Source of the DNA: Streptomyces sp. NBC_00271
GTDB lineage: Bacteria > Actinomycetota > Actinomycetes > Streptomycetales > Streptomycetaceae
Assembly: GCF_036178845.1 (NCBI RefSeq)
Contig: NZ_CP108070.1
Span: 9,796,001 to 9,860,000 of the forward strand
DNA length: 64,000 bases
Reading direction: 5' to 3'
Shown: piece by piece, positions 30,870 to 64,000 of the stretch
Layout of the letters: the number at the start of each line of letters is the position of its first letter
How positions within the stretch are numbered: position 1 is the stretch's first letter
Notes under the pieces: model-generated
What the model was told of the DNA's origin: nothing
The model's database searches: none
Seen by the model: the letters and a program-made list of their open reading frames with translations, nothing else
Program-made: the position numbers and the translations under genes

Positions 30870-30974
<105 letters not shown>

Positions 30975-44390: not shown

Positions 44391-44495
<105 letters not shown>

Positions 44496-44865: not shown

Positions 44866-44892
44866 TGTCACAGACAGACGAGCTGTCCCGTC
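44866..44892 (+). promoter_or_regulatory. ECF41-type promoter 1
   Basis: TGTCACA, 16 bp, CGTC: an exact match to the published ECF41 consensus. It lies 103 bp upstream of the small membrane protein gene at 44995. Confidence 0.8.
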
Positions 44893-44994
44893 CATGGGAG
44901 AGGCCGCCGACGCGGAGGACCAGATCATCTGGGCTGCCTGCCCGACCCGGCATCGCGGTGACTGGTCCCTCTCAACCCTCTCTGGAGGTACACC

Positions 44995-45339
44995 ATGGAC
45001 ACGAGCAAGGAGGCCGCACGGGGCCTGAACGACATCGAAGACTTCCTGTACCGGGAGGTACATCTCGAAGCGGCTCATCGGCGCGTGGCGGATTTCACCG
45101 CCCGAACGGCGGGGCTGACCGATGGGCAGAAGAGGGATATCGAGCGGTGGTATCTCGAAGAGCAAAACTACGTCGCCGGCATGGTGACGGATCACATCGC
45201 CGCTCGCATCAGCCTGGTGGAAGGGCAACATCACATCCGCTTCGGCCGATGGCTGCGGGGAACGCTGATAGCGATGGTCCTGATCACCGTGGCACTGATC
45301 ACGGTGTGCGTCGCCGTGATCCTGGGGACGTCCGGCTGA
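44995..45339 (+). CDS. Small membrane protein in the ECF41 island
   Basis: A 114-residue protein: an acidic/amphipathic N-terminal part (GLNDIEDFLYREVHLEAAHR) and one C-terminal membrane helix (GTLIAMVLITVALITVCVAV). CTGGAGG gives a strong ribosome-binding site for ATG 44995. It is preceded by a perfect ECF41-type promoter. No domain recognised. A tail-anchored or sensor-like topology with a cytoplasmic N-domain is plausible. Confidence 0.75.
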   Translation: MDTSKEAARGLNDIEDFLYREVHLEAAHRRVADFTARTAGLTDGQKRDIERWYLEEQNYVAGMVTDHIAARISLVEGQHHIRFGRWLRGTLIAMVLITVALITVCVAVILGTSG

Positions 45340-45439
45340 CCCACCGTGTGCTCAACTTGCTCTACCTGCCCGGCATGCGACTCGACTCGACCAGCGCCAC
45401 CGCCACCGCCATCCCGCGCTCTGACCCGCGGGACACCGC

Positions 45440-46039
45440 TCAGGAACGCGGGGCGCGGTAGAGGCCTCGGCCGGTTCGCTGGACGCGGTACGTGCCGACG
45501 AGACGATCGAGTGTGCTGCGGACCGCGTTGATGCTCCCGCTGTCGGTGTCACGGCCAAGAGCCGCGGCGACATCGCGGGCCCGCACGTCGCGGTCGCCGA
45601 CTTCGGCGAAGTACTCCATGATCTGTTCGGTGAGCTTGCCGTACTGCTTCGGCTCGTCCGTGTCCGTTCCGGTATCGGCGGAAACAGGGCGTTCCGTGGT
45701 CTTGCCGCTGCTGGCCTTCCGAGCTGTGGGTGCTGCGGAGGGGGTTGCGGCGTCCGCGGATTCGGAGGAAGTGACGGCTGCCTGCGGGGCGGCCGGGGGA
45801 GCGGCCTGACCGTGCCCCGCAACCGCGGATTCGGTCGACCCCGTCGACGCTGCGGCAGCCGGCGCACGCAACAGCGACTCAAAGGCCCTGAGGGTCCGCC
45901 GCACCGAGCCGAGATGCGCCACGACCGCGGCCAATTCCCTTTCCAGTGCCTCCTTCTGAAGCTCCAGGCGGGCCAGTTCCTCTTGAAGGCCCTCAGCGGT
46001 GATCTCGATGTTGTGCGCCGCGTGGGTTACGGAGACCAT
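45440..46039 (-). CDS. Coiled-coil plus winged-helix protein (putative regulator)
   Basis: A 199-residue protein in three parts. Residues about 10-55 form a heptad-rich coiled coil (ELARLELQKEALERELAAVV). A Ser/Thr/Ala/Pro-rich linker spans about 60-130. The C-terminal 60 residues look like a winged helix (YGKLTEQIMEYFAEVGD, DVAAALGRDTDSGSINAVRS, then a GRGLYRAP wing). GAGAGGAA precedes ATG 46039. It may bind DNA as a dimer; no named family recognised. The 330 bp between it and the sigma gene hold only a promoter. Confidence 0.7.
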   Translation of the reverse strand: MVSVTHAAHNIEITAEGLQEELARLELQKEALERELAAVVAHLGSVRRTLRAFESLLRAPAAAASTGSTESAVAGHGQAAPPAAPQAAVTSSESADAATPSAAPTARKASSGKTTERPVSADTGTDTDEPKQYGKLTEQIMEYFAEVGDRDVRARDVAAALGRDTDSGSINAVRSTLDRLVGTYRVQRTGRGLYRAPRS

Positions 46040-46251
46040 GTGTTCCTCTCATCCTCAACCTTCGACATCATAGGCAGTAGCCCATGTGGAATGTAGATGC
46101 TGTGGACGGTCCCACGGTTTCCCACGGGTGAGCCTCTTCAAGGCCTGCGGGGCAAGCTCATCAGGTGTGTGTCATGGGCCGCGAAAACACCGTGTGTCCG
46201 CCCGGGGCGGCTCCTCCGACATGAGCCGGCCGGTATTTCTCTGCCGAAACC

Positions 46252-46278
46252 TGTCACAGGGACGGGCTCACCCCGGTC
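46252..46278 (+). promoter_or_regulatory. ECF41-type promoter 2 (autoregulatory)
   Basis: TGTCACA, 16 bp, GGTC, 91 bp upstream of the first ECF41 sigma gene. Confidence 0.8.
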
Positions 46279-46369
46279 TATGAAGGGGATGTGATCGGAG
46301 CAGTCGTGACCTTCAGTGAGCACATGACCCGCGGCGCCCGACCAAGCGGAGGAACGGAGACCGAGGATC

Positions 46370-47305
46370 ATGCATGACGAGCCGTCCCCCACGGCAAGTG
46401 ACCTTGACGAGGCTGTTTCGGTCTTTGTGCAGCACAGGGCACGTCTCTTCGGTATCGCCTACCGCGTACTCGGCAGCGCGGCCGAGGCCGAAGACGTGGT
46501 CCAGGAGGTGTGGCTGCGTTGGCAGAGGACCGAGCGTTCCGTGGTGGTGAGCCCAGTGGCCTTCCTGTCGAGCACCGCGACCCGACTGGCCATCAACGTC
46601 GCGCAGTCGGCGCGCGTGCGGCGGGAGACCTACATCGGACCGTGGCTGCCGGAGCCCATCGACACGAGTTCGGACCCGGAGGTGGGCGCGCAGCGCGCCG
46701 AGGCCCTGGAACTGGCTCTGCTGCTGGTGTTGGAGAAGCTGAGCCCCACCGAGCGTGCCGCATACATACTGCGCGAGGCGTTCGACTACAGCTATCCCGA
46801 GATCGCTCACATGCTTCAGATCAGTCTCGTCAACGCACGGAAGATCGTGAGCCGTGCTCGCAAGCATCTGACGGACGAGCAGCGGGAGAGCGTGGACACG
46901 GTCGAGCACCGACGCCTTCTGAACGCCTTCGTCTCAGCTGCTCGAACGGGGGACGTGGCGTCACTGGAAGCCCTGCTCACCCCCGATGCCGTCAGTCTGT
47001 CGGACGGGAACGGTATCCTGGGCGTCGCTCGGATTCCCGTGCTGGGCCGTGCCCGCGTGGCCCATCTGCTGACCGCGTATCCGCGGTTCTGGGGGAATGT
47101 GGGCATCGAGTTCGTCGCTGCCAACGGCCGTATGGGCGCGATGATCTACCGAGATGGCGAGCCCTCCACGTTCATGACCATAGCGGCCGAGAGGGCGGGC
47201 ATCTACAGGGTGATGTGGGTGTTCAACCCAACAAAGATCGACGCCTTCCTCAACTCACGGTTCCGATCCACAACTGCCCTCAGGCCTGCGCCGAGTGGCG
47301 CGTGA
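46370..47305 (+). CDS. ECF41-family sigma factor with SnoaL-like C-terminal domain (1)
   Basis: A 311-residue protein. Region 2 reads LFGIAYRVLGSAAEAEDVVQ and WLRWQR, region 4 reads LSPTERAAYILREAFDYSYP and IAHMLQISLVNARKIVSRAR. A SnoaL-like extension runs from about residue 185. ECF41 signatures are present: WLPEP in the linker and NPTKI near the end (family NPDKL). In ECF41 the extension acts as a built-in regulator in place of an anti-sigma factor. An ECF41-type promoter upstream implies autoregulation. Confidence 0.93.
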   Translation: MHDEPSPTASDLDEAVSVFVQHRARLFGIAYRVLGSAAEAEDVVQEVWLRWQRTERSVVVSPVAFLSSTATRLAINVAQSARVRRETYIGPWLPEPIDTSSDPEVGAQRAEALELALLLVLEKLSPTERAAYILREAFDYSYPEIAHMLQISLVNARKIVSRARKHLTDEQRESVDTVEHRRLLNAFVSAARTGDVASLEALLTPDAVSLSDGNGILGVARIPVLGRARVAHLLTAYPRFWGNVGIEFVAANGRMGAMIYRDGEPSTFMTIAAERAGIYRVMWVFNPTKIDAFLNSRFRSTTALRPAPSGA

Positions 47306-47323
47306 GTGCGGCAACCGCATGGC

Positions 47324-48076
47324 TCAAGGTTGGTTCCAGGAGCGTAGTTTGTCGGGGTTGAGGACGACCCACACCTGTATGACACGGTGGTCTGCGATGT
47401 CGAGGCTGATGACCGCGGCGACCTGACGGCCGTAACGGGCGACCAGGCCGGTACGACCGTTGACGGACTGAGCCGTCAAAGCGGTGCGCGGCCGGCGGGC
47501 CAGCAACGTCAGCAGACTGTGCGCCACCTGCCGGCCCCCGTGCACCGGCCTGCTCGACGCCCGCACCTTGCCCCCGCCGTCGAAGACCGCCGTGACGTCC
47601 GGACGCAACAGCGACACCAATTGCCCGGCATCCTCGTCCAGGCAGGCCCGACCCACCGCGCGAACCAGGGCATCGTGCTCCCACGGCGCCACGGGGTCCG
47701 AACGCCGCACCCGAAGACTGGCACGGGCCCGCTCGTCCGGCGACAGGCAACCCAGTGCATCCAGCAGAACCCGACTCACCTCCGCCCCCACCCCTGCCTC
47801 AACTCCCTCGGCCCCCGCCTCAAAAGCGCTGTCGCCAGACCGCTCGACCAGCTCGAGCCGGGTCAGGCAACTCCTGCCCGTACTCCTCGCAAGCCAGGAC
47901 CGGGGCCGGGCGATCTCCCGGCGCGCCGCACCCGACAACCCGTACCACCGGCGGTAGACCTCATCGACCACACACTCCGCCTCGCCGGCACTGCCCAACA
48001 TCCAGCAAGCCACATCCAGGAGATATCGACGCTCGTCCAGCAACTCCGCGATCGACACCACGTCGGCCTCGTCCAT
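47324..48076 (-). CDS. ECF41-like protein lacking sigma region 4
   Basis: A 250-residue protein. The N-terminal half follows ECF41 region 2 in degenerate form (LLDVACWMLGSAGEAECVVDEVYRRWYG in part: MLGSAGEAECVVDEV). The start of region 4 is present (LDALGCLSPDERARASLRVR), but the following 45-50 residues with the DNA-binding helix-turn-helix are missing. It passes directly into a SnoaL-like domain (LVRAVGRACLDEDAGQLVSLL) ending VLNPDKL, the exact ECF41 regulatory motif. GGAGGG precedes ATG 48076. It has its own ECF41-type promoter. It may act as a decoy or anti-sigma, or a non-DNA-binding partner; this is inference. Confidence 0.82.
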   Translation of the reverse strand: MDEADVVSIAELLDERRYLLDVACWMLGSAGEAECVVDEVYRRWYGLSGAARREIARPRSWLARSTGRSCLTRLELVERSGDSAFEAGAEGVEAGVGAEVSRVLLDALGCLSPDERARASLRVRRSDPVAPWEHDALVRAVGRACLDEDAGQLVSLLRPDVTAVFDGGGKVRASSRPVHGGRQVAHSLLTLLARRPRTALTAQSVNGRTGLVARYGRQVAAVISLDIADHRVIQVWVVLNPDKLRSWNQP

Positions 48077-48142
48077 ACGTCATCCCTCCTCCCACACAAC
48101 TCCAGCCAAGTGATCCTTTCGTCGTCGAGACTCATTCCGATT

Positions 48143-48169
48143 GACCAGGCACACACGGGTCTTGTGACA
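48143..48169 (-). promoter_or_regulatory. ECF41-type promoter 3
   Basis: On the minus strand TGTCACA, 16 bp, GGTC, 67 bp upstream of the region-4-less ECF41-like gene. Confidence 0.8.
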
Positions 48170-48213
48170 TGGCGCCCTTTCACATGAGCGTCGCCCATCA
48201 GCGTCTCGGCAGC

Positions 48214-48384
48214 TCACGTGGGGGGATTCTGATACAGAGCGGTGGCGACGGCCTTCATCCGCTCCTTGAGATCCGCGAGTTCTTGGCGCAGCTCGTTGAC
48301 ACGAGTCTCCAGCTCCGCGGCTTCCGCGGCCAGCGATACGACGGCGGCCGCGATGTCGGTTCGGTTCTCGGCGGTGTGAGTCAT
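48214..48384 (-). CDS. 56-aa coiled-coil protein
   Basis: A short ORF with GAGGG 7 nt before ATG 48384. The product is almost entirely one heptad-patterned helix (AAAVVSLAAEAAELETRVNE, then LRQELADLKERMKAVATAL). Removing the two inserted elements to its right would put the YceI stop codon about 20 bp upstream, so it was probably the second gene of an operon with YceI. Function unknown. Confidence 0.6.
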   Translation of the reverse strand: MTHTAENRTDIAAAVVSLAAEAAELETRVNELRQELADLKERMKAVATALYQNPPT

Positions 48385-48407
48385 CTGGTGTCCCTCCGCG
48401 GCCCTAG

Positions 48408-48658
48408 GGTCTGTCCGGCGGATCATGCCGGAGACGCGGGGTCTGGCACGCCCTCCCCCAAGCTCTTCGAGCAGGGGGTACCCCCAGCGGCGTTGTCGTC
48501 GGTTGCCGACTCCCCCGAGCTCTCGGCTTCGCTCGAGCAGGGGGGACCCCCATCGCGTCGACGCCCTCCTCCGCCTTGCAGCTGCACGCACCAGACCCCG
48601 CTCACCTGCACTTATGAGGCGCCGTTACTTTCCTCCGACCTGATCCGCCGGACAGGCC
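48408..48658. mobile_element. MITE-like non-coding element, 251 bp
   Basis: Terminal inverted repeats GGTCTGTCCGGCGGATCA and TGATCCGCCGGACAGGCC (17 of 18 matching), flanked by CTAG on both sides (48404-48407 and 48659-48662). It contains no transposase. Ends of this kind are common in Streptomyces IS5-group elements. The interior carries direct repeats around GAGCAGGGGGTACCCCC and GAGCAGGGGGGACCCCC. Confidence 0.8.
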
Positions 48659-48662
48659 CTAG

Positions 48663-50130
48663 GCGCAATGCCGTTGCGTTACGGGCTTGCGGGTTGGGGT
48701 CTTGTGATGAGGACCGCTTGAGGTCCGGTGCGGGTCGGCTGTGGCCAGGAACGGTGTTCAGTTCGCTTGAGGTGGTAGTTGGACATCTTGCGTTTCACCA
48801 CGCGGGGCTGGCTGCGGAGGCGTCTGACGGGCAGGAGCCGTTCCAGGAGGTCCTGCTCGAGCATCACCAGTGCTCTGACCAGGAGGTCAGGGGGAAAAAC
48901 TGCCCGGCGTGACGGTCACGCTGCGCCGGGCAGAGCGCAGGGTTTCGGTGAAGGAGACCCGGTCAGGGTCCAGGCCACGGGTGGCAGCCGTTCTCAGCAT
49001 GAGTTCCCGCAGAGCGTGGTGGACCAGCAGGTGTGCCCAGATCTGCTGGTGAACACCGTCGGGTGTTTTACTGCTGAGCACGACGCGTGCGCCACGCTGA
49101 TGGGTCTTGATCTCGGCGAAGACGGACTCGATCTCCCAGCGTTCGCGGTAGAGCGCGGCCATCTGCCGGGCAGGATAGCGTCGGGCGTCCAGCAGGCTGG
49201 TGACCAGGCGATAGCCGTCGGTCTCACCCTCACCGGCCCGGTCCTTGAGCCGGTAGGCCAGGACACGGACCACAACCGGCTCCTTGCGGGCCGGGCCGCT
49301 GCTCGCTCTGATGTGTGAGAGCCATGACCCGTCGCGGAACTGTTTGGTGACGGGCAGGACGCGGTTGGCGGGCACCCGCCACAGCAGGTCGGCGCCGGTG
49401 GCTGTGAACGCCTGCCACAACGCGACGCCAAGGAACTCACGGTCGGCCAGGATCAGCTGACCTGGGCCGGTCGAACGTGGTAGGCGGCCTACCAGAGTGA
49501 CTTCCCCGGTGCGGCAGCCGGCCAGTTCCGCGTCCAGCACCGCATGGCTGCCGATCTCCACCAGAGCTGCCATTCGCACTTGCGGAAACGCGCTCCTGCC
49601 CGACCCGCGGCCACTGCCCGGACGTCCGAAGGCAGTCTCGTTGGCTTCACTGTCCGCGACGTCCCAGCACGTGCCGTCGACGGCGAGCAGCCGCAAGCCC
49701 CGCCAGAACGCGCCGGGCGTCGCCTCGGTCGCCATGGGCTTCGCGGTCGTGGCGAACAGCACCCGCAGCGGCTCGGAGCCCAGCCGCTGCCGGGCCCTGA
49801 ACAGTGAGGACTTCGCCGGAACACGCCAGTTGCCCAGCAGCCCCGAGCCCCGCAAGCCCTCGACGAGATGGCGCATCACTTCCAGATACGGGGCAGGTGA
49901 GAACAGGGCCAACGCCAGCACGAAGTACACCACCAGCCGCGCGGGAAGCAGTCGCTGACGCCGCTCGGCACGACCGCACGCCGCCACCACCCGGTCCACC
50001 AAGCCTGGCGGATACACCCAGGTCAACAGACCGAGACCCGATAAGTCAGACACACTCGCAGCCACCCGAACCACCCCCGGGACGAACTGCCAAGCACAGT
50101 ACGCCTACAGCAAAGGCAACGGCATTGGCC
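48663..50130. mobile_element. IS4-type insertion sequence, 1468 bp
   Basis: 15-bp terminal inverted repeats GCGCAATGCCGTTGC (48663-48677) and GCAACGGCATTGGCC (50116-50130), 13 of 15 complementary, flanked by CTAG target duplications at 48659-48662 and 50131-50134. It carries one transposase gene on the minus strand. The left CTAG is shared with the MITE, so the IS inserted at the MITE's boundary. Confidence 0.85.
48887..50074 (-). CDS. IS4-family transposase
   Basis: A 395-residue, apparently intact transposase: an N-terminal IS4 dimerisation region (LLPARLVVYFVLALALFSPA), then the DDE core with LLAVDGTCWDVAD, ILADREFLGVALW and the Y(2)R(3)E(6)K-type signature in YRERWEIESVFAEIKTH. It likely starts at GTG 50074. 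No frameshift or stop is seen, so the element may be active. Confidence 0.92.
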   Translation of the reverse strand: MVRVAASVSDLSGLGLLTWVYPPGLVDRVVAACGRAERRQRLLPARLVVYFVLALALFSPAPYLEVMRHLVEGLRGSGLLGNWRVPAKSSLFRARQRLGSEPLRVLFATTAKPMATEATPGAFWRGLRLLAVDGTCWDVADSEANETAFGRPGSGRGSGRSAFPQVRMAALVEIGSHAVLDAELAGCRTGEVTLVGRLPRSTGPGQLILADREFLGVALWQAFTATGADLLWRVPANRVLPVTKQFRDGSWLSHIRASSGPARKEPVVVRVLAYRLKDRAGEGETDGYRLVTSLLDARRYPARQMAALYRERWEIESVFAEIKTHQRGARVVLSSKTPDGVHQQIWAHLLVHHALRELMLRTAATRGLDPDRVSFTETLRSARRSVTVTPGSFSP

Positions 50131-50262
50131 CTAGGCGGTGTCTGTCTGCTCCAGCCGGTCAGCGGAGACGTCAAGCGTCAGCTTCACCTTGTCGCTGATC
50201 AGGACCCCGCCTCCGGCCAGTGCCGTGTTCCGGTCCAGTCCCCAGTCGGAACGTCGCAACGT
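50131..50262 (-). pseudogene. YceI-family protein, C-terminal remnant
   Basis: Only the last 43 codons are recognisable: LRRSDWGLD, then ALAGGGVLISDKVKLTLDVS, which match the conserved C-terminus of YceI lipocalin-like proteins. The upstream 140 residues are missing; the 270 bp to the oxidoreductase gene show no homology in any frame. Its stop codon TAG is part of the CTAG used by the IS. Confidence 0.75.
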
Positions 50263-50530
50263 GGGGGAAGGACGCCGAGTCGAGGAGGAGCCCCTCGAAG
50301 GCGGTGAATTTGGGAGCGGCGATTTCCCCGCGACTCGACATGTCGAGTCGGCTCGTTCACGTACAAATCTCGGGCGGGGGTCAATTCCGGCGCGCTGCGG
50401 CCCTGCAGCGGATTCCAAGAACTCTGCTTGAGTGAAATGTTGCCCGTCGTGAACGCGAAGGCCGGGCTCGTGACCCGTGGCCGGAGAGAAGAGGTGGCCC
50501 CCGCCTGCTGACAGGGGCCACCCGCGGGAC

Positions 50531-51277
50531 TTACTGCTGCTGTGCGAGCCAGTCGGTGAAACGGGTTTCGGCGATGTGCGCGTCGGGGCCCGGCAGAAGC
50601 GTGGTCTCCTCCAGCTGGACACCCCAGTACGTCGCGTGTGCGTCCGTGACCACTGCGCGGGGGTCGTTCGTGGCGGCGAGCCCCGTGCGGATGAACTCGT
50701 CGAGCTGGAACGCGTCGGGGCCCGCGACCTCCACCATGCCGTTGACCGGAGCGCCGACGGCGGTGCGGCCGACGGCAGCGGCCACGTCGCCGGAGTAGAT
50801 GGGCTGGATCTTGCCGGGGGCAAGACGCACGGTGTCGCCGTCGGTGGCCGAGTCGGCGATCCCCTTCATGAACTCGAAGAACTGGGTGGCGTGGACGATG
50901 GAGTAGGGGGTGCCGGACGCCTTGATCAGCTCCTCCTGGACCTGCTTGGCGCGGAAGTAGCCGCTGTCCTGGAGACGCTCGGTACCGACCACGGACAGCG
51001 CCACGTGGTGCTGCACGCCCGCGTCGGTCTCCGCCTTCAGGAGGTTGGCCGTGGAGGTGCGGAAGAAGTCCATGACGGCCTCGTCCTCGAAGGAGGGCGA
51101 GTTGGACACGTCGACGACGACCGAGGCACCCTCCAGGACCTCGGCCAGACCCTCGCCCGTCAGGGTGTTGACACCGGTGTTGGGCGAGGCTGCGACCGCG
51201 TCGTGCCCGTTCTCGTTGAGCTTGCCGACCAGTTGCGAGCCGATGAGCCCGGTTCCACCGATCACTACGACCTTCAT
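50531..51277 (-). CDS. NAD(P)H-binding NmrA-like oxidoreductase (ECF41 COE-type target)
   Basis: A 248-residue atypical SDR: KVVVIGGTGLIGSQLVGKL, GASVVVDVSNSPSFED, HHVALSVVGTERL, YFRAKQVQEELI and TQFFEFM. ECF41 sigma genes typically neighbour carboxymuconolactone decarboxylases, oxidoreductases or epimerases, and this fits the oxidoreductase class. ATG 51277 has GAGG upstream. An ECF41-type promoter lies about 90 bp upstream. Substrate unknown. Confidence 0.9.
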   Translation of the reverse strand: MKVVVIGGTGLIGSQLVGKLNENGHDAVAASPNTGVNTLTGEGLAEVLEGASVVVDVSNSPSFEDEAVMDFFRTSTANLLKAETDAGVQHHVALSVVGTERLQDSGYFRAKQVQEELIKASGTPYSIVHATQFFEFMKGIADSATDGDTVRLAPGKIQPIYSGDVAAAVGRTAVGAPVNGMVEVAGPDAFQLDEFIRTGLAATNDPRAVVTDAHATYWGVQLEETTLLPGPDAHIAETRFTDWLAQQQ

Positions 51278-51369
51278 GACGGATCCTCTCGGAAGATTTC
51301 CTGGTGCGGCGCGCACCCTGTGACGAGCTGCTCACCGGCACCCGTACAAATTTCGTCTGCATCAGAAGA

Positions 51370-51396
51370 GACAGGGAAGTGGCTCTCTTTGTGACA
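51370..51396 (-). promoter_or_regulatory. ECF41-type promoter 4
   Basis: On the minus strand TGTCACA, 16 bp, TGTC, upstream of the oxidoreductase gene. Confidence 0.75.
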
Positions 51397-51462
51397 GCTG
51401 GTTCGGACGAATCGAGAAGATTCCTCCTATCAGCCCTCAGTTGCCCGGTTGCACGAGGCAGG

Positions 51463-53193
51463 TCATTCGGCAAGCTTTCCGTCGGTCGAGACCTCTTCCA
51501 TCAGCGCGGAAATCTCGTCCGGGACGGCCGGAATGCTTTCGCGAGTGATGCCCGTCGTCGGGGACCACACGAGATTGACCTGCAGTGCGGGATCCTGTTC
51601 GGGGTAGTCGCTGCGGTTGTGACAGCCACGCGTCTCACGACGTTCCAGCGCCGCCTCGAGAGTGGCCCGGGCCGCCAGGGCGGCGGATTTGAGATCAAAG
51701 GTGTGCGCGAGGTCCTGATAGCCGGCGATGTCCGGGTGGACGCCGATGTCCGCCATCCTCTTCTCGATCACCGAGAGCTCCGCCAGACCGGCACGCAGGC
51801 CCTCTTCGTCGCGTACGACTCCCGCATGCTCGGTCATGGTGTTGCGGATGGCGCGCTGCAGGGCACGGACGTTCTCCGGCCCGTCGGCGGCGAGAAGGTC
51901 GTCGATCTCCGCGCGGGCCTCCGCGACGGCCGACGCCGACCGTGGCTGTGCGGTCAGCGACTGAGAGTAGGCGGCCGCCGCCCGGCCCGTGATGCGCCCG
52001 AAGACCAGCAGCTCGATGAGACTGTTCCCGCCGAGGCGATTGGCGCCGTGCAGCCCGCTCGACGCCTCACCGATGGCGTACAGGCCACGCACATCGGTGC
52101 TGTGGTCCTCGGGACGCACCCACACCCCGCCCATCGAGTAGTGCGCGGTGGGTGCGATCTCGATCGGTTCGCGGGTGATGTCCAGCATCTGCAGGTCCAG
52201 AAGCGTCTGGTAGACCCGGGGCAGCCGCGTCATGATCGTCTGCCGTGGCAGGTGCGAGACGTCGAGCCACACGCCTCCCTTGGGTGTGCCGCGCCCTTCC
52301 TTGATCTCCGTGTAGGAGGCCAGCGCCACGCGGTCGCGGGTGGACAGCTCCATCCTGACGGGGTCGTAACGGCTCATGAACCGTTCCCCGAGCGCGTTGC
52401 GCAGGATCCCGCCCTCACCCCGGGCGGCCTCGCTGACCAGTGTTCCGGCCGCGTTCTCCGGCTCGATGATCCCTGAAGGATGGAACTGCACCAGCTCGGC
52501 GTCGCGCAGACGGGCTCCGGCCTCCACCGCCAGGCGGAAGGAATCGCCCGTGTTCTCGTCGCGCCGCGAGGAGGTACGCCGCCAGATACGCGTATGGCCG
52601 CCCGCGGCAAGAATGACCGCGTCCGCGTGGATCAGGTAGCGCTTCCCGGTCGCGAGGTCGAACCCGTAGGCGCCGAAGACAGCGCCGTCGTGTACGAGGA
52701 GCCGGGTGATGTAGACGCCGTCGAGCACCGGAATGCCGAGCTGGTCCGCCCGCCTGATCAGCGTGCGCTGGATCTCCAGACCGGTGTAGTCACCGGCGAA
52801 GGCGGTCCGCCGGAACTTGTGCGCGCCGAAGAAGCGCTGGGAGATCCGTCCGTCCTCTTCCCGGGCGAAGGCCATGCCGTAGCGGTCCAGGTCGTCGATG
52901 CCTCGGGCGGCGCCCTGGGTGACGATCTCGACGGTGCGAGGGTCGGCCAGCAGGTAGCTCTCCTTGAGAGTGTCGGCGGCGTGCTGCTGCCAGCTGTCCT
53001 CGGGATCCATGGTGGCCAGGGCCGCGTTGATTCCCCCGGCGGCGAGCGCGGTGTGGGCGTCCTCCTTGGGACGCTTGCCGACCGCCAGGACGTCGACGCC
53101 GGCCTCGGCCAGCTCGATCGCCGCTCGCAGCCCGGCTCCTCCGGTGCCGATCACCAGCACCATGGTGGCAAGACGTTGTTCGGTGATAGCCAC
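51463..53193 (-). CDS. FAD-dependent fumarate-reductase/L-aspartate-oxidase family flavoprotein
   Basis: A 576-residue flavoprotein. The dinucleotide motif is VLVIGTGGAGLRAAIELAEA, followed by TALAAGGINAAL, the substrate-domain FRRTAFAGDYTG, HPSGI, TAHYSMGGVWV and GEASSGLHGANRLGGNSL. This matches the SdhA/FrdA/NadB superfamily. There is no quinolinate synthase or iron-sulphur subunit nearby, so the exact substrate is unclear. GTG 53193 has GGAG 8 nt upstream. It is preceded by an ECF41-type promoter, an unusual target for that sigma group. Confidence 0.88.
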   Translation of the reverse strand: MAITEQRLATMVLVIGTGGAGLRAAIELAEAGVDVLAVGKRPKEDAHTALAAGGINAALATMDPEDSWQQHAADTLKESYLLADPRTVEIVTQGAARGIDDLDRYGMAFAREEDGRISQRFFGAHKFRRTAFAGDYTGLEIQRTLIRRADQLGIPVLDGVYITRLLVHDGAVFGAYGFDLATGKRYLIHADAVILAAGGHTRIWRRTSSRRDENTGDSFRLAVEAGARLRDAELVQFHPSGIIEPENAAGTLVSEAARGEGGILRNALGERFMSRYDPVRMELSTRDRVALASYTEIKEGRGTPKGGVWLDVSHLPRQTIMTRLPRVYQTLLDLQMLDITREPIEIAPTAHYSMGGVWVRPEDHSTDVRGLYAIGEASSGLHGANRLGGNSLIELLVFGRITGRAAAAYSQSLTAQPRSASAVAEARAEIDDLLAADGPENVRALQRAIRNTMTEHAGVVRDEEGLRAGLAELSVIEKRMADIGVHPDIAGYQDLAHTFDLKSAALAARATLEAALERRETRGCHNRSDYPEQDPALQVNLVWSPTTGITRESIPAVPDEISALMEEVSTDGKLAE

Positions 53194-53228
53194 GGTTCAC
53201 TCCGATCGCCAAGGTTGTCACTCACTAC

Positions 53229-53255
53229 GACCGGGCCGCCGAGGTATCTGTGACA
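53229..53255 (-). promoter_or_regulatory. ECF41-type promoter 5
   Basis: On the minus strand TGTCACA, 16 bp, GGTC, 36 bp upstream of the flavoprotein start. Confidence 0.8.
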
Positions 53256-53369
53256 CGCTCGCCGCCATCGGGGTGTCACGGCAGGACGCGGTCCAGAGGT
53301 ACGTCTGAGGCGCATCGAAACGGTCGCCCATCAGAACGCGCGGCGGCTGTCACAACGCCATGGGTCACA

Positions 53370-53873
53370 TCAACGCCAGGAAGCCAGCGTGATGGTGGTC
53401 GGCGTTCCCTGCCGTGTCATCCTCGCGTAGGGGCACAGCGAATCTGCCTTCTCGAGAACCGGAGCGGCGACCTCGGGATCGATGTCAGGCCATGTGACCA
53501 CCAGGTCGACATGCAGTACGTAGCCGCCGTCTTCCGGATCCCGCCCGAACGCCACGGTCGCCTCGACGGAGATCGGGGTGGGGTCGAGCGTGGCCTGTCG
53601 TGCCAGGAGAGTGACGGCGCCATGGAAGCAGGCGGCGAAGCCGGCGGCGAACAACTGCTCGGGATTCGTTCCGTGGCCGTCTCCGCCCAGCTCGGCAGGC
53701 ATACGCAGGTCGAGATCCAGGACTCCGTCGTCCGAGCGGGCCCTCCCGGAGGCTCGGCCATGAGCCGCTGGCCCCCCGCTCACCGTCACCGTCGTGGTGT
53801 AGAGGGGCGCAAAGGCATCGCCCTCGAAGTCCTTGTCGGTGGACAGACCGGGCAACCGGAACGGGTCGTTCAC
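53370..53873 (-). CDS. OsmC/Ohr-family peroxidase
   Basis: A 167-residue protein: GTNPEQLFAAGFAACFHGAV carries the first peroxidatic cysteine, VDLVVTWPDID follows, and the resolving cysteine is in DSLCPYARMTRQG. Organic hydroperoxide resistance proteins reduce lipid or organic peroxides using these two cysteines. GTG 53873 has GGAG 7 nt upstream. An ECF41-type promoter lies 119 bp upstream, tying it to the island's stress response. Confidence 0.92.
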   Translation of the reverse strand: MNDPFRLPGLSTDKDFEGDAFAPLYTTTVTVSGGPAAHGRASGRARSDDGVLDLDLRMPAELGGDGHGTNPEQLFAAGFAACFHGAVTLLARQATLDPTPISVEATVAFGRDPEDGGYVLHVDLVVTWPDIDPEVAAPVLEKADSLCPYARMTRQGTPTTITLASWR

Positions 53874-53991
53874 CGCGCGGCTCCGTCAGTGCTCCAGGAC
53901 ACGGGCGGGCGGGGAGGAGCAACTGCGGAAAGCGTCATGGTGGTGAGCTACCTTCGCGTCTCAGAGAATCCGCGATTCCGGACAACGAGTT

Positions 53992-54018
53992 GACCGGCAA
54001 GTCACTCCTCTTGTGACG
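53992..54018 (-). promoter_or_regulatory. ECF41-type promoter 6
   Basis: On the minus strand CGTCACA, 16 bp, GGTC, one mismatch in the -35, upstream of the OsmC gene. Confidence 0.7.
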
Positions 54019-54059
54019 CCTGCGGGCAGCCCCGGCGCAGCATCGTTCGCCGAGTTGCC

Positions 54060-54956
54060 TCAGCTGTCCAGCGAGGCCACGTAGGGATCCAGTTTCGCCG
54101 GATTCATGACCCACATGAGGCGTTCGATGCCGCGCTCCGACACATCGACGCACAGCAGAGCAACGCTGTGTCCATCGGCCGAGACAAGGACGGCCGGCAT
54201 GCCGTTGGCCTCCACCCAGCGAACGTCCGCCTGAGGCCAGAGGCGTGGGGCGAAGGCGGCGAGGTATTTGGAGACATGAGAACGTCCGACGACCGGAATC
54301 TTGGATGCTCCGCGAATCCCTCCGCCGTCGCTGTAGCTGACCACGTCCTCGGTGAGAACGTCCTCGAGGACCGACAGGTTGCCGGTCTGCGCTGCGGAGA
54401 GGAACACCTCCAGGAGCCGCCGGTGAGCGGCAGGACTCACGGGCTCCTTGCGTTCCGCCGACAGATGTTTCCGGGCACGGCTCACCAACTGGCGCGTATT
54501 GGCTTCGCTCGTCTCCAACATGTCCGCGATCTGCTTGTACGGGTAGTCGAAGGCTTCCCGCAGAACGTAGGCAGCCCGTTCCACAGGGTTCAGTTTCTCC
54601 ATGAGGTGAAGAACCGCCAGGTCGAGCGCCTCCGCTCGTTCCGCACCCAGCTGCGGATCCACACGTGTGTCGACCGGCTCCGGCAGCCACGGCCCGATGT
54701 ACGACTCACGTCGCTTCGGTGCCGACTGGGCCAGGTTGATCGCCAGACGGGAAGTGACCGTGGCCAGAAACGCGCCCGGCTCCACGATGTCGGCACGATT
54801 GGTGTTCTGCCAGCGCACCCACGCATCCTGGACGATGTCCTCGGCTTCCACGACACTCCCCAGCACGCGGTAAGCGATGCCGAAGAGGTGGGGACGCGCC
54901 GCCATGAATTCCCTCGTTGCCTGGTCGAGAGAGTCTGCGTCATCCCGGGCGCGCAT
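54060..54956 (-). CDS. ECF41-family sigma factor with SnoaL-like C-terminal domain (2)
   Basis: A 298-residue ECF41 sigma factor: LFGIAYRVLGSVVEAEDIVQ, WVRWQNT, linker WLPEP, region 4 LNPVERAAYVLREAFDYPYK and IADMLETSEANTRQLVSRAR, then a SnoaL-like extension ending in NPAKL. It is clearly paralogous to the factor at 46370. ATG 54956 is chosen for GGAGG 6 nt upstream; the frame is open a little further. The nearest ECF41-type promoter on this strand is about 390 bp upstream. Confidence 0.94.
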   Translation of the reverse strand: MRARDDADSLDQATREFMAARPHLFGIAYRVLGSVVEAEDIVQDAWVRWQNTNRADIVEPGAFLATVTSRLAINLAQSAPKRRESYIGPWLPEPVDTRVDPQLGAERAEALDLAVLHLMEKLNPVERAAYVLREAFDYPYKQIADMLETSEANTRQLVSRARKHLSAERKEPVSPAAHRRLLEVFLSAAQTGNLSVLEDVLTEDVVSYSDGGGIRGASKIPVVGRSHVSKYLAAFAPRLWPQADVRWVEANGMPAVLVSADGHSVALLCVDVSERGIERLMWVMNPAKLDPYVASLDS

Positions 54957-55347
54957 AGGTGTCCTCCAGAAGTGCAGCACCATGCTACAAGCTGCCGCAG
55001 CGGTGCGCGTCTTCTCCGGAGGATCTTGAGCGATGCGAGAAGCGATGCGAGAGTGGCTGCCGACCTCGGGCGATGGTCACCGCTGTCGCGCGCCATCCAG
55101 AACGACTCGTTGCGCTCTCGCAGCACACCTTCGGGCACCAGCGCCCGGCGACATCAGCGAGCGCGGCGGCGACGTCGTCGGTCGACACAGGTCACATCAG
55201 CACGGGCGCAACAAGCACGCCCTCGCCGTACGTGGACAGGACCACGTGATTACCGGTACGACCTCGACACCGTGGTCCCGGGGCCTGGCGACAGTTCTGG
55301 AACCGATCAGGCCGGTGACGGTGCCGGCAGCGAATCTCTACACCTAG

Positions 55348-55374
55348 GACAGCGTTGGACCCGATGTTGTGACA
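55348..55374 (-). promoter_or_regulatory. ECF41-type promoter 7
   Basis: On the minus strand TGTCACA, 16 bp, TGTC. It would give the second sigma gene a leader of about 380 nt. In the 54957-55432 stretch I see no convincing gene, only a weak 67-codon frame at 54985-55188. Confidence 0.65.
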
Positions 55375-55432
55375 CCGCTTGACAACCTCCGTCAGCCGAG
55401 CGGTCCTCCCGGGGGTCGGATACGGTCTTTCA

Positions 55433-55459
55433 TTTCACAGATCCACTGTGCGTCCGGTC
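55433..55459 (+). promoter_or_regulatory. ECF41-type promoter 8
   Basis: TTTCACA, 16 bp, GGTC (one mismatch in the -35), 100 bp upstream of the cupin gene and divergent from promoter 7. Confidence 0.6.
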
Positions 55460-55558
55460 ATCAGTGGGAAACGGCCATGGGACCTGGATGCGCGGACACG
55501 CGTCGGGCTGACGGTATGCCCATCCCATGGCGTGACGGATGCATGGAGGTGCAACACG

Positions 55559-56002
55559 GTGTCGAACCAGGACTCGGTGCCCGGGACCGGCCGCCAGACA
55601 CCGTCGGAGGGGTGGAAGACGGCGGTGACGATGCTGCAGGACGCCGCACCGATCTCCGTCCCGGAGGGTGCCTCGGCGATGACCCTTCACGTCGAGTGGG
55701 AGCCCGGAGACCCGGGAACTCCGCCGCACCGCCACTCGGGGCCGGCGTTCGGGTACGTCATCGAGGGTGCTGTCCGTTTCGAGCTCGAGGGCGAGCTCGA
55801 GCGCGTGGTCGAGGCCGGCGGGACGTTCTGGGAACCGGGTGGTGACCCGATCCACTACCAGGACGGCAACGCGCTGGCCGATGCGCGGACCCGGTTCGTC
55901 GTGACCATGATGTGCGCGCCGGGCAAGCCCATGCTCGAACTGGTCGATGCGGAGGAACTGGAGCAGCGGGCCCACCTGCGGGCCCCGCGACCCACCGACT
56001 GA
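55559..56002 (+). CDS. Cupin-domain protein
   Basis: A 147-residue single-domain cupin: GTPPHRHSGPAFGYVIEGAV and FELEGELERVVEAGGTFWEP form the two metal-binding motifs (H, H, E and a late His in DPIHYQD). Such small cupins often dioxygenate or isomerise carbonyl compounds, or simply bind ligands. GTG 55559 has GGAGG 12 nt upstream; the open frame extends to 55379. The frame continues, after the stop, into a fragment of another gene. Confidence 0.85.
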   Translation: MSNQDSVPGTGRQTPSEGWKTAVTMLQDAAPISVPEGASAMTLHVEWEPGDPGTPPHRHSGPAFGYVIEGAVRFELEGELERVVEAGGTFWEPGGDPIHYQDGNALADARTRFVVTMMCAPGKPMLELVDAEELEQRAHLRAPRPTD

Positions 56003-56203
56003 CCCTTCTTCGCCGCCGCCGCACTGTGGTTCCCGCTGACCGCCGTGAGCCGTCACCGGCAGTTCGAACTGACCGATGTCGCACGGAGGTTGCCGTATGC
56101 GGTCGGCATGACCGCAATGGCTTGGATGACGAACCTCGGTCACTCCACAGGGTCGAAGGCCGGCGACGCGGTCACCGGAGTACGGGCGCTGAAGGCCGTG
56201 TGA
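56003..56203 (+). pseudogene. C-terminal fragment of a membrane protein (DUF5134-like)
   Basis: In the same frame as the cupin but after its stop, the sequence reads PFFAAAALWFPLTAVSRH and LPYAVGMTAMAWMTNLGHS, then GDAVTGVRALKAV and a stop. It resembles the last helices of DUF5134 membrane proteins. There is no start or preceding domain, so it looks like a remnant left by deletion. The 155 bp after it hold nothing I can support. Confidence 0.4.
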
Positions 56204-56358
56204 CCATTTGACAACAACGTGTGCCACGACGGACGGAACGGTGTCAAATTCAGCGTTTCGGTCGGGGCGTCGGAGTCGTTGCGGAAGGCATGGACGGAAA
56301 GCGACACTGACCTCCCCGCCACTCTCTTGGAGGCGCGGCAGGAGCCGTTCCGCCACGC

Positions 56359-57117
56359 TCAGCGGCTGAACAATTCGAAGACGACGGCCGGCTTCCCGCC
56401 GAAGCGCGCACTGTGCTCGCCGGTGCTGTCCATCAGGAAGCGGCGCGTGTACGTCTCGGGATCCTCGTCGCTCAATGCCTCGATGTACGCACGATGCTGA
56501 AGCAGCGACTGCACTGCCTGTTCGAAGCCCCGGTCCGCACGTACCGCGTGGGTGGGATTCGGGGAGTTGGCGACGGCGACCCATCGCACGCCGTTCCAGG
56601 GCCGCAGTTCCTGTTCGGCCAGTTCCGGGAAGATCCAGCGGTTGCCCGCGTCCGCCGCCGCGTCGAGGGCGGCGCGCCCGACGGCCACGTGATCCGGGGT
56701 GTTCCAGACCCCCGAACCCCAGGTCGCATGGTGGTTCAGAGTGATCAGCAACTCGGGCCGGTGACGACGGATGGCAGCGGCGATGTCGCGGCGCAGGGAG
56801 ATGCCGTACTCGATTGTGCCGTCCCGGTGGTCGAGGAACTCCACTGCGGAGACCCCGACGGCGGCTGCACTGGAGCGCTGCTCCCTCTCCCTCAGCGGTC
56901 CGGCCTCGGCCGGTGCCAGCGTGTCGATGCCCGCTTCGCCGCGGGTGGCGAGGACATAGGCGATCTCACGGCCGTCCTGGATCCAGGACGCGACGGCGGC
57001 CGAGCACCCGTACTCGAGATCATCAGGATGGGCCACCACGGCCAGTGCACGTTGCCAGTCGGTCGGCATCGGCCGCAGTTGCGCGAGAGGAGAATCGGTC
57101 ACAGCGCCTGCTTTCAT
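56359..57117 (-). CDS. PIG-L/LmbE-family deacetylase
   Basis: A 252-residue zinc-dependent N-deacetylase: VVAHPDDLEYGC (AHPDD motif), TRGEAG, FLDHRDG and HATWGSGVWNTPDHVAVG with the later zinc histidine. The family includes mycothiol-pathway MshB/Mca, so a thiol-stress role would fit this island, but sequence alone does not show it. ATG 57117 lacks a clear ribosome-binding site; GTG 57102 has AGG before it. It lies downstream of the CMD gene on the same strand, beyond a hairpin. Confidence 0.88.
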   Translation of the reverse strand: MKAGAVTDSPLAQLRPMPTDWQRALAVVAHPDDLEYGCSAAVASWIQDGREIAYVLATRGEAGIDTLAPAEAGPLREREQRSSAAAVGVSAVEFLDHRDGTIEYGISLRRDIAAAIRRHRPELLITLNHHATWGSGVWNTPDHVAVGRAALDAAADAGNRWIFPELAEQELRPWNGVRWVAVANSPNPTHAVRADRGFEQAVQSLLQHRAYIEALSDEDPETYTRRFLMDSTGEHSARFGGKPAVVFELFSR

Positions 57118-57336
57118 GGATTGTTCCCGTGGTCGTGCGAAAACCGCGGCGCGAGAGGTGGTTCCGTCAGCCACCCATGGGCCCGCCGATCCAGCGCCGG
57201 CCCGGTCCATCCACCAGCCCGCACAGGACATGTTGGCTTCCCCGACATCACCCATCGGACTGCGTCCGCCGATGGTGTCCCTGGCTGCGGGGTGGCGAAG
57301 TCCTCCGCACGGCCCGCCCTCGTGGGTGGTGGCGGG

Positions 57337-57373
57337 CCGTCTCCGCGCCGTGGGTCGGGGCGCGCGGAGACGG
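57337..57373 (-). terminator. Terminator after CMD gene
   Basis: Perfect 12-bp stem CCGTCTCCGCGC / GCGCGGAGACGG with a 13-nt loop, 22 bp beyond the CMD stop on the minus strand. A second repeat (ACGGCCCGCC / GGCGGGCCGT) follows at 57309-57340. Confidence 0.65.
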
Positions 57374-57394
57374 ACTGTGCGGCCGGGAGGTCCG

Positions 57395-57868
57395 TCAGCC
57401 GAACTGGCCGGGCTGGTAGTCGCCGGCCGGCTGCTGGACGATGACATTCACACGGTTGTAGGCGTTGATGACGGCGATGAGGGAAACCAGCGCGGCGAGC
57501 TGGTCCTCGTCGAAGTGCTTGGCGGCGTTCTCCCACACCTCGTCCGTGACCCCACCGGCCGCGTCGGCGATGCGGGTGCCCTGCTCGGTCAGCTCCAGGG
57601 CGGCGCGCTCGGCGTCGGTGAACACCTTGGCCTCCCGCCAGGCCGCGACCAGGTTGAGGCGCTGCGGGGTCTCCCCGGCGTGCGTGGCGTCCTTGGTGTG
57701 CATGTCGGTGCAGAAACCGCAGCCGTTGATCTGGCTGGCGCGGATCTTCACCAGCTCCTGGGTCGCGACCGGCAGCGTCGAGTCCGCGATCACCTTGTTG
57801 GCGGAGTTGATGTGCTTCAGCACCTTCCCAGCGAGAGGGTGGCCGAAGAAGTTGAGACGCGATTCCAC
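57395..57868 (-). CDS. Carboxymuconolactone decarboxylase/AhpD-family protein
   Basis: A 157-residue CMD-fold protein with the AhpD redox signature in INGCGFCTDMHTKDA (C-x-x-C-x-x-x-H). It has SRLNFFGHPLAGKVL near the start and FDEDQLAALVSLIAVINAYN near the end. This is the classic partner and target of ECF41 sigma factors, acting as an alkylhydroperoxidase. GTG 57868 has AAGGAG 6 nt upstream, better than the longer open frame to 57898. A strong ECF41-type promoter lies 38 bp upstream. Confidence 0.94.
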   Translation of the reverse strand: MESRLNFFGHPLAGKVLKHINSANKVIADSTLPVATQELVKIRASQINGCGFCTDMHTKDATHAGETPQRLNLVAAWREAKVFTDAERAALELTEQGTRIADAAGGVTDEVWENAAKHFDEDQLAALVSLIAVINAYNRVNVIVQQPAGDYQPGQFG

Positions 57869-57905
57869 GGTGATCTCCTTGCAGTGTTGTGGATACACAA
57901 CTATT

Positions 57906-57932
57906 GACCGGGGTGAGCGAAGACGTGTGACA
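57906..57932 (-). promoter_or_regulatory. ECF41-type promoter 9
   Basis: On the minus strand TGTCACA, 16 bp, GGTC, 38 bp upstream of the CMD start codon. Confidence 0.85.
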
Positions 57933-60681: not shown

Positions 60682-60934
60682 TGATTGCCTCCAGCGTCAC
60701 CCGCGAGGTGAGTCAGGGATGGGATGCCGGCCGCTTTGAACGGCCATCAGTTTCCATGCCCTGTGCGGAGAGGATCGCGCGCTCCGGGCACCCGGATGGC
60801 ACACAGTTCACTCGTCCGCACCGGCGGGCTCGCGCGCCTCGGGGGTCGCGTCAACGATCGGCACATGGCGACCCCGGTCTTTGGACACGGCGGTCGTTCC
60901 TGACCTTCCGTGAAGAAGAGAAGAGGTGTGCCGG
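60682..60934. promoter_or_regulatory. Divergent spore-pigment promoter region
   Basis: A 253-bp intergenic region corresponding in position to the divergent whiEP1/whiEP2 promoters of S. coelicolor, which depend on sporulation regulators (P2 on sigma-F). I cannot assign -10/-35 elements with confidence. A small GGCCGCTTTGAACGGCC palindrome lies around 60730. Confidence 0.55.
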
Positions 60935-62056: not shown

Positions 62057-62059
62057 CAG

Positions 62060-62085
62060 AGGGCCGCGGCTTCGTCCGCGGCCCT
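62060..62085 (+). terminator. Intercistronic hairpin
   Basis: Perfect 10-bp stem AGGGCCGCGG / CCGCGGCCCT with a 6-nt loop in the 69-bp gap between ORFI and ORFII. It may attenuate or process the operon message rather than end it. Confidence 0.5.
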
Positions 62086-62125
62086 CCCTCCCCGGACGTC
62101 ACTGCCCCACCCGGAGGTATCAAGC

Positions 62126-62608
62126 ATGTTCAAGAAGCATCCACGCATCGTGGACCTGAGCGAGACGGAACCCAACCGCAGGCGCGGAGGCGACATCCGG
62201 GCCATGCTCACGCCCGCCACGGCGGGGTCCACCAGCGGCTTCATGGGCCTGGCCCTCATCCAGCCCGGCGAGCGCATCGGTGAGCACTACCACCCGTACT
62301 CCGAGGAGTTCGTGTACGTCGTCAACGGCGCCCTCGAAGTGGACCTGGACGGCGACTCCTTCGCCCTGCGGCCCGATCAGGGTCTGCTGATCCCGATCAA
62401 CATGCGGCACCGCTTCCGCAACGTCGGCGACACGGAAGCCCGCATGGTCTTCCACCTGGGCCCGCTCGCTCCGCGTCCGAGCCTCGGCCACGTCGACACG
62501 GAGGTGACCGACGACACCGCGCCCGGCCCCGAGTTCGCCACCGCCGGGGCGGACCTGTCCGCGCCGGACCACGGACAGCCGTCCGAGCGAAGTGGGGCCA
62601 TAAAGTGA
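62126..62608 (+). CDS. WhiE ORFII-like cupin
   Basis: A 160-residue cupin: [20 protein letters not shown] and the second motif [18 protein letters not shown] give a full metal site. In whiE, ORFII is the small cupin between ORFI and the ketosynthase, thought to assist cyclisation of the nascent polyketide. It overlaps the ketosynthase start by GTGA. Confidence 0.92.
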
Positions 62609-63873: not shown

Positions 63874-64000
63874 CCACTCAGCGCACTCAGCGCCCCCGGC
63901 GCGCGGCCATCACCGGCATCGGTGTGATCGCGCCCAACGGACTGCGCGCCGACGCGTACTGGAAGTCCGTCAGAGAAGGCCTCGTCGTCCTGGACCGGAT
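63870..64000 (+). CDS. Chain-length factor (KS beta, WhiE ORFIV-like), 5' end only
   Basis: The first 43 codons are present, running off the window: [20 protein letters not shown] is the N-terminus of a type II chain-length factor. ATG 63870 overlaps the KS-alpha stop (ATGA), the classical coupling of these two genes. The active-site region is outside the window. Confidence 0.9.

Follow-up and report, generated by a model that had tools for sequence, protein, structure and literature searches.

We analysed a stretch of 64,000 nucleotides from Streptomyces sp. NBC_00271 (contig NZ_CP108070.1, positions 9,796,001 to 9,860,000; the whole stretch is called the window here). It holds an island of genes for oxidoreductase-, flavoprotein-, OsmC-, cupin- and CMD-type proteins, two extracytoplasmic function (ECF) sigma factors of group ECF41 (sigma a and sigma b) and a shorter relative of these, termed pseudo-sigma. 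Nine copies of a promoter-like element, YKTCACA-N16-BGTC (Y, T or C; K, G or T; B, C, G or T), are distributed over this island (Table 1), and paralogs of most of its genes form a second island (island 2) in the same genome.

Promoter-like sites and genes of the window island

All nine elements given in a preliminary description of this DNA were recovered at the same coordinates and on the same strands, and the 64 kb contain no further match, compared with a mean of 0.50 and a maximum of three in 100 dinucleotide shuffles. Since this pattern had been fitted to the nine sites, they were re-tested with a weight matrix. It was derived from TGTCACA-N16-NGTC sites of other genomes, 401 distinct ones from 77 loci, and as it was built on exact TGTCACA and GTC matches it favours those letters by construction. 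The nine best positions of the window were again the same sites, scoring 15.7 to 29.3 bits, followed by 6.6 bits at rank ten. In 50 windows generated with a first-order Markov model the best score averaged 8.1 bits with a maximum of 24.5, and three of the 50 reached at least 15.7 bits, so that the weakest site, at 53992, would be insufficient alone. When spacers of 10 to 23 bp after TGTCACA were scanned between 44.5 and 58.2 kb, N16 accounted for seven occurrences of [CGT]GTC and N11 for the only other. Shuffles, Markov windows, spacer scan and reversed patterns (see below) together rule out chance or base composition as the origin of the sites.

The invariant 16-bp spacer of the proposed consensus was thereby borne out, while a perfect TGTCACA at –35 is present in seven of the nine sites (CGTCACA at 53992, TTTCACA at 55433); the base preceding GTC is G in six, T in two and C in one. 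That each site faces a gene proved correct for eight of them, the predicted start following after 35 to 118 bp. The exception, 55348(–), lies upstream of sigma b and is separated from it by 391 bp that contain the remnant of an oxidoreductase gene; its former target was probably this now-decayed NmrA-like gene. In another genome with most of the window-island genes (G020) the oxidoreductase gene is preserved in full, in divergent orientation to the cupin gene, with one site each; the arrangement at sigma b is common to the window and the orthologous island of Streptomyces olivochromogenes DSM 40451 (L125). The latter has 11 matches in the stretch compared and includes orthologs of eight of the nine window sites, the ninth falling past its end. 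Across these eight sites, 1 of 88 key positions has changed compared with 14 of 128 spacer positions (Fisher p=0.005).

Table 1. Sites and genes of the window island (window coordinates), and two sites elsewhere in the genome. Families were assigned by Pfam and NCBIfam profile searches; distances are to the start of the gene named.
Feature	Position	Strand	Description	In L125
Site 1	44866..44892	+	TGTCACA-N16-CGTC; 102 bp before 114-aa membrane protein	kept
Site 2	46252..46278	+	TGTCACA-N16-GGTC; 91 bp before sigma a	kept
Site 3	48143..48169	–	TGTCACA-N16-GGTC; 66 bp before pseudo-sigma	kept
Site 4	51370..51396	–	TGTCACA-N16-TGTC; 92 bp before oxidoreductase	kept
Site 5	53229..53255	–	TGTCACA-N16-GGTC; 35 bp before flavoprotein	kept
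Site 6	53992..54018	–	CGTCACA-N16-GGTC; 118 bp before OsmC; weakest, 15.7 bits	kept
Site 7	55348..55374	–	TGTCACA-N16-TGTC; 391 bp before sigma b	kept
Site 8	55433..55459	+	TTTCACA-N16-GGTC; 99 bp before cupin	TGTCACA
Site 9	57906..57932	–	TGTCACA-N16-GGTC; 37 bp before CMD	
114-aa protein, one hydrophobic segment	44995..45339	+	no Pfam or NCBIfam match; island-2 paralog 68%	
199-aa protein	45440..46039	–	no family match; paralogs in island 2 and G020; no own site	
Sigma a, ECF41-type, 311 aa	46370..47305	+	region 2.4 INVAQSAR; linker YIGPWLPEP; TIGR02957	
Pseudo-sigma, 250 aa	47324..48076	–	sigma2-like and SnoaL-like parts kept; linker motif absent, sigma4 mostly missing	
NmrA/epimerase-like NAD(P)-binding oxidoreductase, 248 aa	50531..51277	–	Pfam; island-2 paralog	
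SdhA/FrdA/NadB-like flavoprotein, 576 aa	51463..53193	–	Pfam/NCBIfam; island-2 paralog 94%	
Ohr-family OsmC peroxiredoxin, 167 aa (start as called here)	53370..53873	–	TIGR03561, 122.8 bits	
Sigma b, ECF41-type, 298 aa	54060..54956	–	region 2.4 INLAQSAP; linker YIGPWLPEP; TIGR02957, 340.3 bits	
NmrA-like oxidoreductase remnant, 22 residues	55251..55316	–	tblastn, 95% over 22 residues, E 1e-7	
Cupin_2 protein, 147 aa	55559..56002	+	Pfam; island-2 paralog	
CMD/AhpD-like protein, 157 aa	57395..57868	–	Pfam/NCBIfam	
GGTC sites before SpoIIE-PAS-GAF-HATPase genes	L036:7162-7188, L039:6486-6512 (G000:C1:202162 and 5394486)			

Searches with Pfam and NCBIfam found no known anti-sigma family among the island proteins, of which the 114-aa and 199-aa proteins match no family at all. 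Upstream, two tRNA-Pro (ggg) genes lie on the same strand at 30900-30974 and 44421-44495; the island begins just past the second, which is also found beside the orthologous island of S. olivochromogenes, and the 13 kb between the two genes may be an insertion. The segment 44563-44816 shows short similarities to both ends of an island-2 Pyr_redox_2 gene and to its upstream region, as if the internal part of such a gene had been lost; a 1.36-kb open reading frame (ORF) occupies this place in S. olivochromogenes. Within the island, an ORF at 48887-50074, named by eye, resembles an insertion sequence transposase and is without relative in the two islands compared. Beyond the island, 59032-64000 has the look of a polyketide-type cluster, with large monooxygenase-like and ketosynthase-like ORFs (likewise by eye).

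A second island and related loci in other genomes

Across the own genome (12.28 Mb) the pattern YKTCACA-N16-BGTC has 98 matches compared with 26 for its reverse, duplicates in the terminal repeat included. The two islands, about 66 kb in all, account for 30 of the 98 and the remaining 12.2 Mb for 68; a similar motif density in unrelated regions, which the preliminary description had named as grounds for refutation, is thus ruled out. Island 2 (C1:8,873,138-8,926,089; loci L031-L034) is the larger of the two and contains 21 matches. One of these, at ~8,896,363 (TTTCACA...CGTC), is intragenic and scores below 10 bits, so that about 20 likely sites are counted here; the matrix adds one candidate, TGCCACA at 8,920,848 (13.6 bits). 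Island 2 encodes, in a different gene order, paralogs of the flavoprotein (94%), cupin (82%), oxidoreductase (80%), OsmC (79%), sigma a (78%), CMD (75%), the 114-aa protein (68%), pseudo-sigma (56%), a 56-aa protein (55%) and the 199-aa protein (54%). Further island-2 genes with a site within 350 bp encode Pyr_redox_2, SpoIIE-PAS-GAF phosphatase, WhiB-like, cytochrome b-type and pyruvate dehydrogenase E1-like proteins.

Outside the islands, two of 13 distinct TGTCACA-N16-BGTC sites carry GGTC, and both precede SpoIIE-PAS-GAF-HATPase genes (Table 1), which possibly link the regulon to anti-anti-sigma control. Elsewhere, two overlapping tandem TGTCACA-N16-TGTC sites precede a gene that encodes a DDE_3 transposase-type domain (L038:5952-6001; G000:C1:1215952-1216001). 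Five pattern matches near the two contig ends are mirrored (G000:C1:28584-262087 and 11670028-11903526), which suggests a terminal inverted repeat of at least ~262 kb.

For comparison with other genomes the pseudo-sigma gene served as marker, and an alignment based on the best 80 of 89 candidates defined the 77 loci, from Streptomyces and Actinacidiphila. In their 1.47 Mb, TGTCACA-N16-NGTC occurs 408 times and the reversed pattern four times. Changing the spacer gave 4 matches at N15, 7 at N17 and 77 at N11, the last being ascribed to a second GTC within the spacer of N16 sites. A start on the same strand follows within 350 bp at 356 of the 408 sites, compared with 14% of random positions, and 6 sites are intragenic, compared with 76% of random positions. 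The 353 target genes fall into 35 clusters, the largest being ECF/pseudo-sigma, Pyr_redox_2-like proteins, NmrA-like oxidoreductases, flavoprotein, WhiB-like proteins, a small-protein family and OsmC. Most of the window-island genes recur in G020 on one 63-kb contig with 22 matches, of which 16.9 kb are identical to Streptomyces flaveolus NRRL B-1589.

Sigma factors and the pseudo-sigma family

The assignment of sigma a and sigma b to ECF41 was confirmed by matches to TIGR02957, the full-length SigX4/ECF41 profile, and by the linker motif in both. With a cut-off of 323.25 bits, sigma b scores above it, and sigma a reached 323.2 bits, just under, in one search and 323.3 bits, just over, in a second. 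The best match of sigma b bears a Streptomyces mirabilis label (96%), and its closest relative in the PDB is SigJ of Mycobacterium tuberculosis (5xe7, E 1.9e-42), an ECF41 factor of solved structure that differs from the island sigmas in region 2.4 (LDKLRSA vs INxAQSA). The C-terminal extension of the two sigmas is covered by the TIGR02957 and SigJ matches and gives no SnoaL match in Pfam; at the position of the NPDKL motif sigma b has NPAKL and sigma a NPTKI.

Pseudo-sigma had been described as a truncated ECF41-like protein. Its kinship with ECF41 stands, with SigJ as best fold match of its predicted structure, but mere truncation does not describe it, as it belongs to a conserved family. 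Relatives in 77 loci and a dN/dS (nonsynonymous to synonymous rate ratio) of 0.34 between the window and S. olivochromogenes, close to the 0.33 of sigma a, rule out a chance fragment. With a cut at 360 bits, placed at a gap in the scores, 32 of a sample of 295 Streptomyces genomes, the own genome included, have a pseudo-sigma match; this is a lower bound, as shorter copies such as that of the window score less. Over 79 aligned copies the mean share of the top residue is 0.75 in the SnoaL-like part, where DGGG is found in all 79 and NP[DE]KL in 78 and which gives NTF2-like fold matches, and 0.20 in the linker. The strict linker motif YVGPWLPEP occurs in none of the 79, four looser matches being unrelated GPW tripeptides. 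The window copy matches neither a sigma2 nor a sigma4 domain in Pfam, and the sigma4 helix-turn-helix is missing from three copies, this one included. AlphaFold2 predicts its N- and C-terminal domains with confidence (mean predicted local distance difference test score, pLDDT, 83.2), in contrast to their mutual placement (predicted template modelling score, pTM, 0.54).

In PhyR and in two-part sigma systems, a sigma-like domain acts as a mimic or as half of a sigma factor. The pseudo-sigma domain differs from these in being derived from ECF41 and joined to a SnoaL-like domain, and similar roles can be weighed for it. In one of these it would serve the island sigmas as a decoy or as a ligand-linked partner, lacking working promoter recognition and providing feedback. 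In line with this, of the 75 pseudo-sigma genes whose available upstream sequence is long enough, 59 are preceded by a site at no more than 450 bp (GGTC in 56 of these), an ECF41 gene lies within 700 bp in 46 of the 77 loci, the linker motif is absent throughout, gaps take up a quarter or more of the sigma4 region in 8 of the 79 copies, and the dN/dS of 0.34 was obtained between two copies that share the loss of most of sigma4. However, most of sigma4 is kept in the other 71 copies, and 31 of the 77 loci have no adjacent ECF41 gene, several of them being ended by contig ends. On balance we treat the decoy or partner role as a serious candidate, at slightly below even odds.

Alternatively, pseudo-sigma could act as a co-sigma that contributes region 2 to a holoenzyme with the intact sigmas, as in two-part systems; the sigma2-like part is well conserved (mean share of the top residue 0.72) and is predicted with high confidence in the structural model. 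Yet the glutamine of the region 2.2 motif V-x-Q-E is absent from 79/79 pseudo-sigmas, compared with such a motif in 75/76 sigmas, and the missing linker motif likewise speaks against a co-sigma, which makes this role improbable.

The –10 element and region 2.4

The preliminary description set the sites beside the known CGTC type of –10 element; by the larger set their class is GGTC: among the 408 sites of the 77 loci, GTC is preceded by G in 331, by T in 66, by C in 8 and by A in 3. The corresponding logo reads TGTCACA-N15-C(86%)-G(81%)-GTC, followed by three A/T-rich bases and, 10 to 11 nt past GTC, a purine preference as for a start site. The ECF41 consensus given in the consulted part of the literature combines the –35 element TGTCACA, a 16-bp spacer and the –10 element CGTC (PMC3426412); if the island sites are to be assigned to sigma a and sigma b, they agree with it in –35 element and spacer and differ at –10. 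Among 29 non-island ECF41 loci, the 17 with an ORF bearing the GPW motif were counted, and the 16 sites near these genes have C in 13, T in 3 and G in none. Within the own genome, G precedes GTC in 19 of 25 island sites compared with two of 13 others (p=5e-4).

Region 2.4 of the island sigmas has the form RLAIN-x-AQSA. In the 77 loci, 66 ECF41 proteins could be parsed; 61 carry A-Q, 2 A-R and one each G-Q, L-R and L-K, compared with L-R or M-R at the same positions in 17/17 non-island proteins. Codons for A-I-N-x-A-Q-S-A were present in 27 of 150 genomes, which have a median of 11 GGTC sites as against one in those without (p=3e-13; 1e-12 minus the own genome). Conversely, 15 of the 18 genomes with at least eight GGTC sites carry these codons, and the other three (G034, G105 and G149) have A-Q, V-Q and A-R forms, respectively, that the codon pattern missed. 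In a tree of 81 proteins (omitting L049, terminal-repeat duplicates and the rows of the distinct-ECF41 list past the first 45 except L124 and L143), the variant sigmas, labelled as A, G or V followed by Q or R, lie on one side of a branch with support 96/92.

The change in region 2.4 is thus associated with the changed –10 element. An exchange of R for Q as sole determinant of GGTC is unsupported, as A-R (G149), V-Q (G105) and L-K (L143) sigmas are also found near GGTC sites; another sigma factor of these genomes could be the GGTC reader.

A different explanation takes the sites as real promoters that are read by several ECF41 factors, with GGTC as a merely tolerated form of CGTC and the clustering reflecting a collection of redox genes. 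Candidate readers exist, as the own genome has 16 TIGR02957 matches of at least 175 bits (terminal-repeat copies included); –35 element and spacer are identical, site 1 has CGTC, and the TGTC of two window sites is also used at other ECF41 loci. The skew of GGTC towards the islands and its absence near the 17 non-island genes nevertheless argue against this explanation, as does the fact that across genomes the A-Q sigma tracks GGTC counts far more than CGTC counts, and we consider such shared use of the sites unlikely.

Discussion

Based on the results above, we regard the two paralogous islands as forming one broad redox regulon, clustered for the most part, that belongs to a separate subclade of ECF41, with a probability of about 0.8. 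The unusually broad ECF41 stress system of the preliminary description was hence understated in its breadth, given the second island and the recurrence in other genomes, and its –10 class is GGTC in place of the canonical CGTC. Sigma a and sigma b would be the factors reading these sites, and the genes for sigma a and pseudo-sigma are best read as being among the targets. The presence of Ohr, AhpD-like, flavoprotein, cytochrome b, ferredoxin-like and WhiB-like proteins among the targets suggests redox or respiratory stress; redox, respiratory or organic-peroxide stress as inducing signal is a guess.

Several observations weigh against a regulon of this kind. Island 2 is less orderly than the window and the 77 loci: a start within 350 bp follows only 13 of its 21 matches (gene calls made here), two are intragenic, several lie 400-631 bp from a start, and its sigma a has the nearest upstream site at a distance of about 0.9 kb, which has slightly lowered our confidence. 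In the 77 loci, 52 of the 408 sites are without a start within 350 bp, and L136 has no site, the other 76 loci holding at least one. The A-Q codons are also accompanied by somewhat more CGTC sites (median 4 vs 3, p=0.017; 0.03 minus the own genome), and G001 carries them with no GGTC site, G022 and G062 with three each. A locus of Actinacidiphila glaucinigra (L143) has an L-K sigma and mostly GGTC sites. Finally, as the variant sigmas lie on a single branch, their link to GGTC counts as one inherited association. That the element might be a repeat or the binding site of another regulator instead of a promoter is barely credible, given its two parts at fixed spacing that face starts, the A/T-rich bases past GTC and the near identity to mapped ECF41 promoters in the consulted part of PMC3426412.

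If the regulon is real, the fused C-terminal sensor domain would release the two window sigmas and their island-2 relative, which would then transcribe from TGTCACA-N16-GGTC, and at times TGTC, so that the redox genes, sigma a and the pseudo-sigma gene would be switched on together. The pairing of GGTC for CGTC with A-Q for L-R in region 2.4 could insulate the regulon from the cell's remaining ECF41 factors, and pseudo-sigma could act as a feedback modulator with the same sensor domain. We tentatively propose, without quite granting it even odds, an insulated multi-promoter ECF41 system with rewired –10 specificity that commands tens of redox genes in islands, reaches out to SpoIIE-type phosphatases and is tuned by a conserved pseudo-sigma.

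ECF41 factors as portrayed in the consulted part of PMC3426412 share with the island system the SigX4-type architecture, the YxGPWLPEP linker, the TGTCACA element with its 16-bp spacer, and neighbours encoding CMD, oxidoreductase, NmrA/epimerase and cupin proteins. They differ from it in the –10 element, GGTC here, and in scale: they were concluded to control a single target gene or operon, compared with nine sites in the window island and about 20 likely ones (21 matches) in island 2 of one genome, provided that these sites belong to sigma a and sigma b. A broader role has been noted for an Azospirillum ECF41 factor in lateral flagella formation (as cited in the consulted part of PMC8999054). 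Among other Streptomyces sigma factors, SigG1 of S. tsukubaensis (ECF56) carries a SnoaL-type extension and has redox and metal targets, of which at least four are reported; it belongs to another ECF group than the island sigmas, has the anti-sigma factor RsfG and is without the NPDKL and linker motifs (PMC7730460, in the sections available). SCO2742 of S. coelicolor, an uncharacterised sigma factor with a C-terminal extension, had eight in vitro targets by RIViT-seq, and the sections available of that report describe no clustered island and name no ECF group for it (PMC9205884). Among the papers listed by our searches of the open-licence PMC literature, none has a title or abstract opening that describes a multi-gene ECF41 island.

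With these islands, a single subclade would come with dozens of clean natural promoters, by which sensing and function of such factors become directly testable. The paired change of region 2.4 and –10 element would represent a natural specificity switch for work on promoter recognition and for orthogonal sigma tools, and in the pseudo-sigma family a relative of sigma factors would have been maintained without full promoter recognition.

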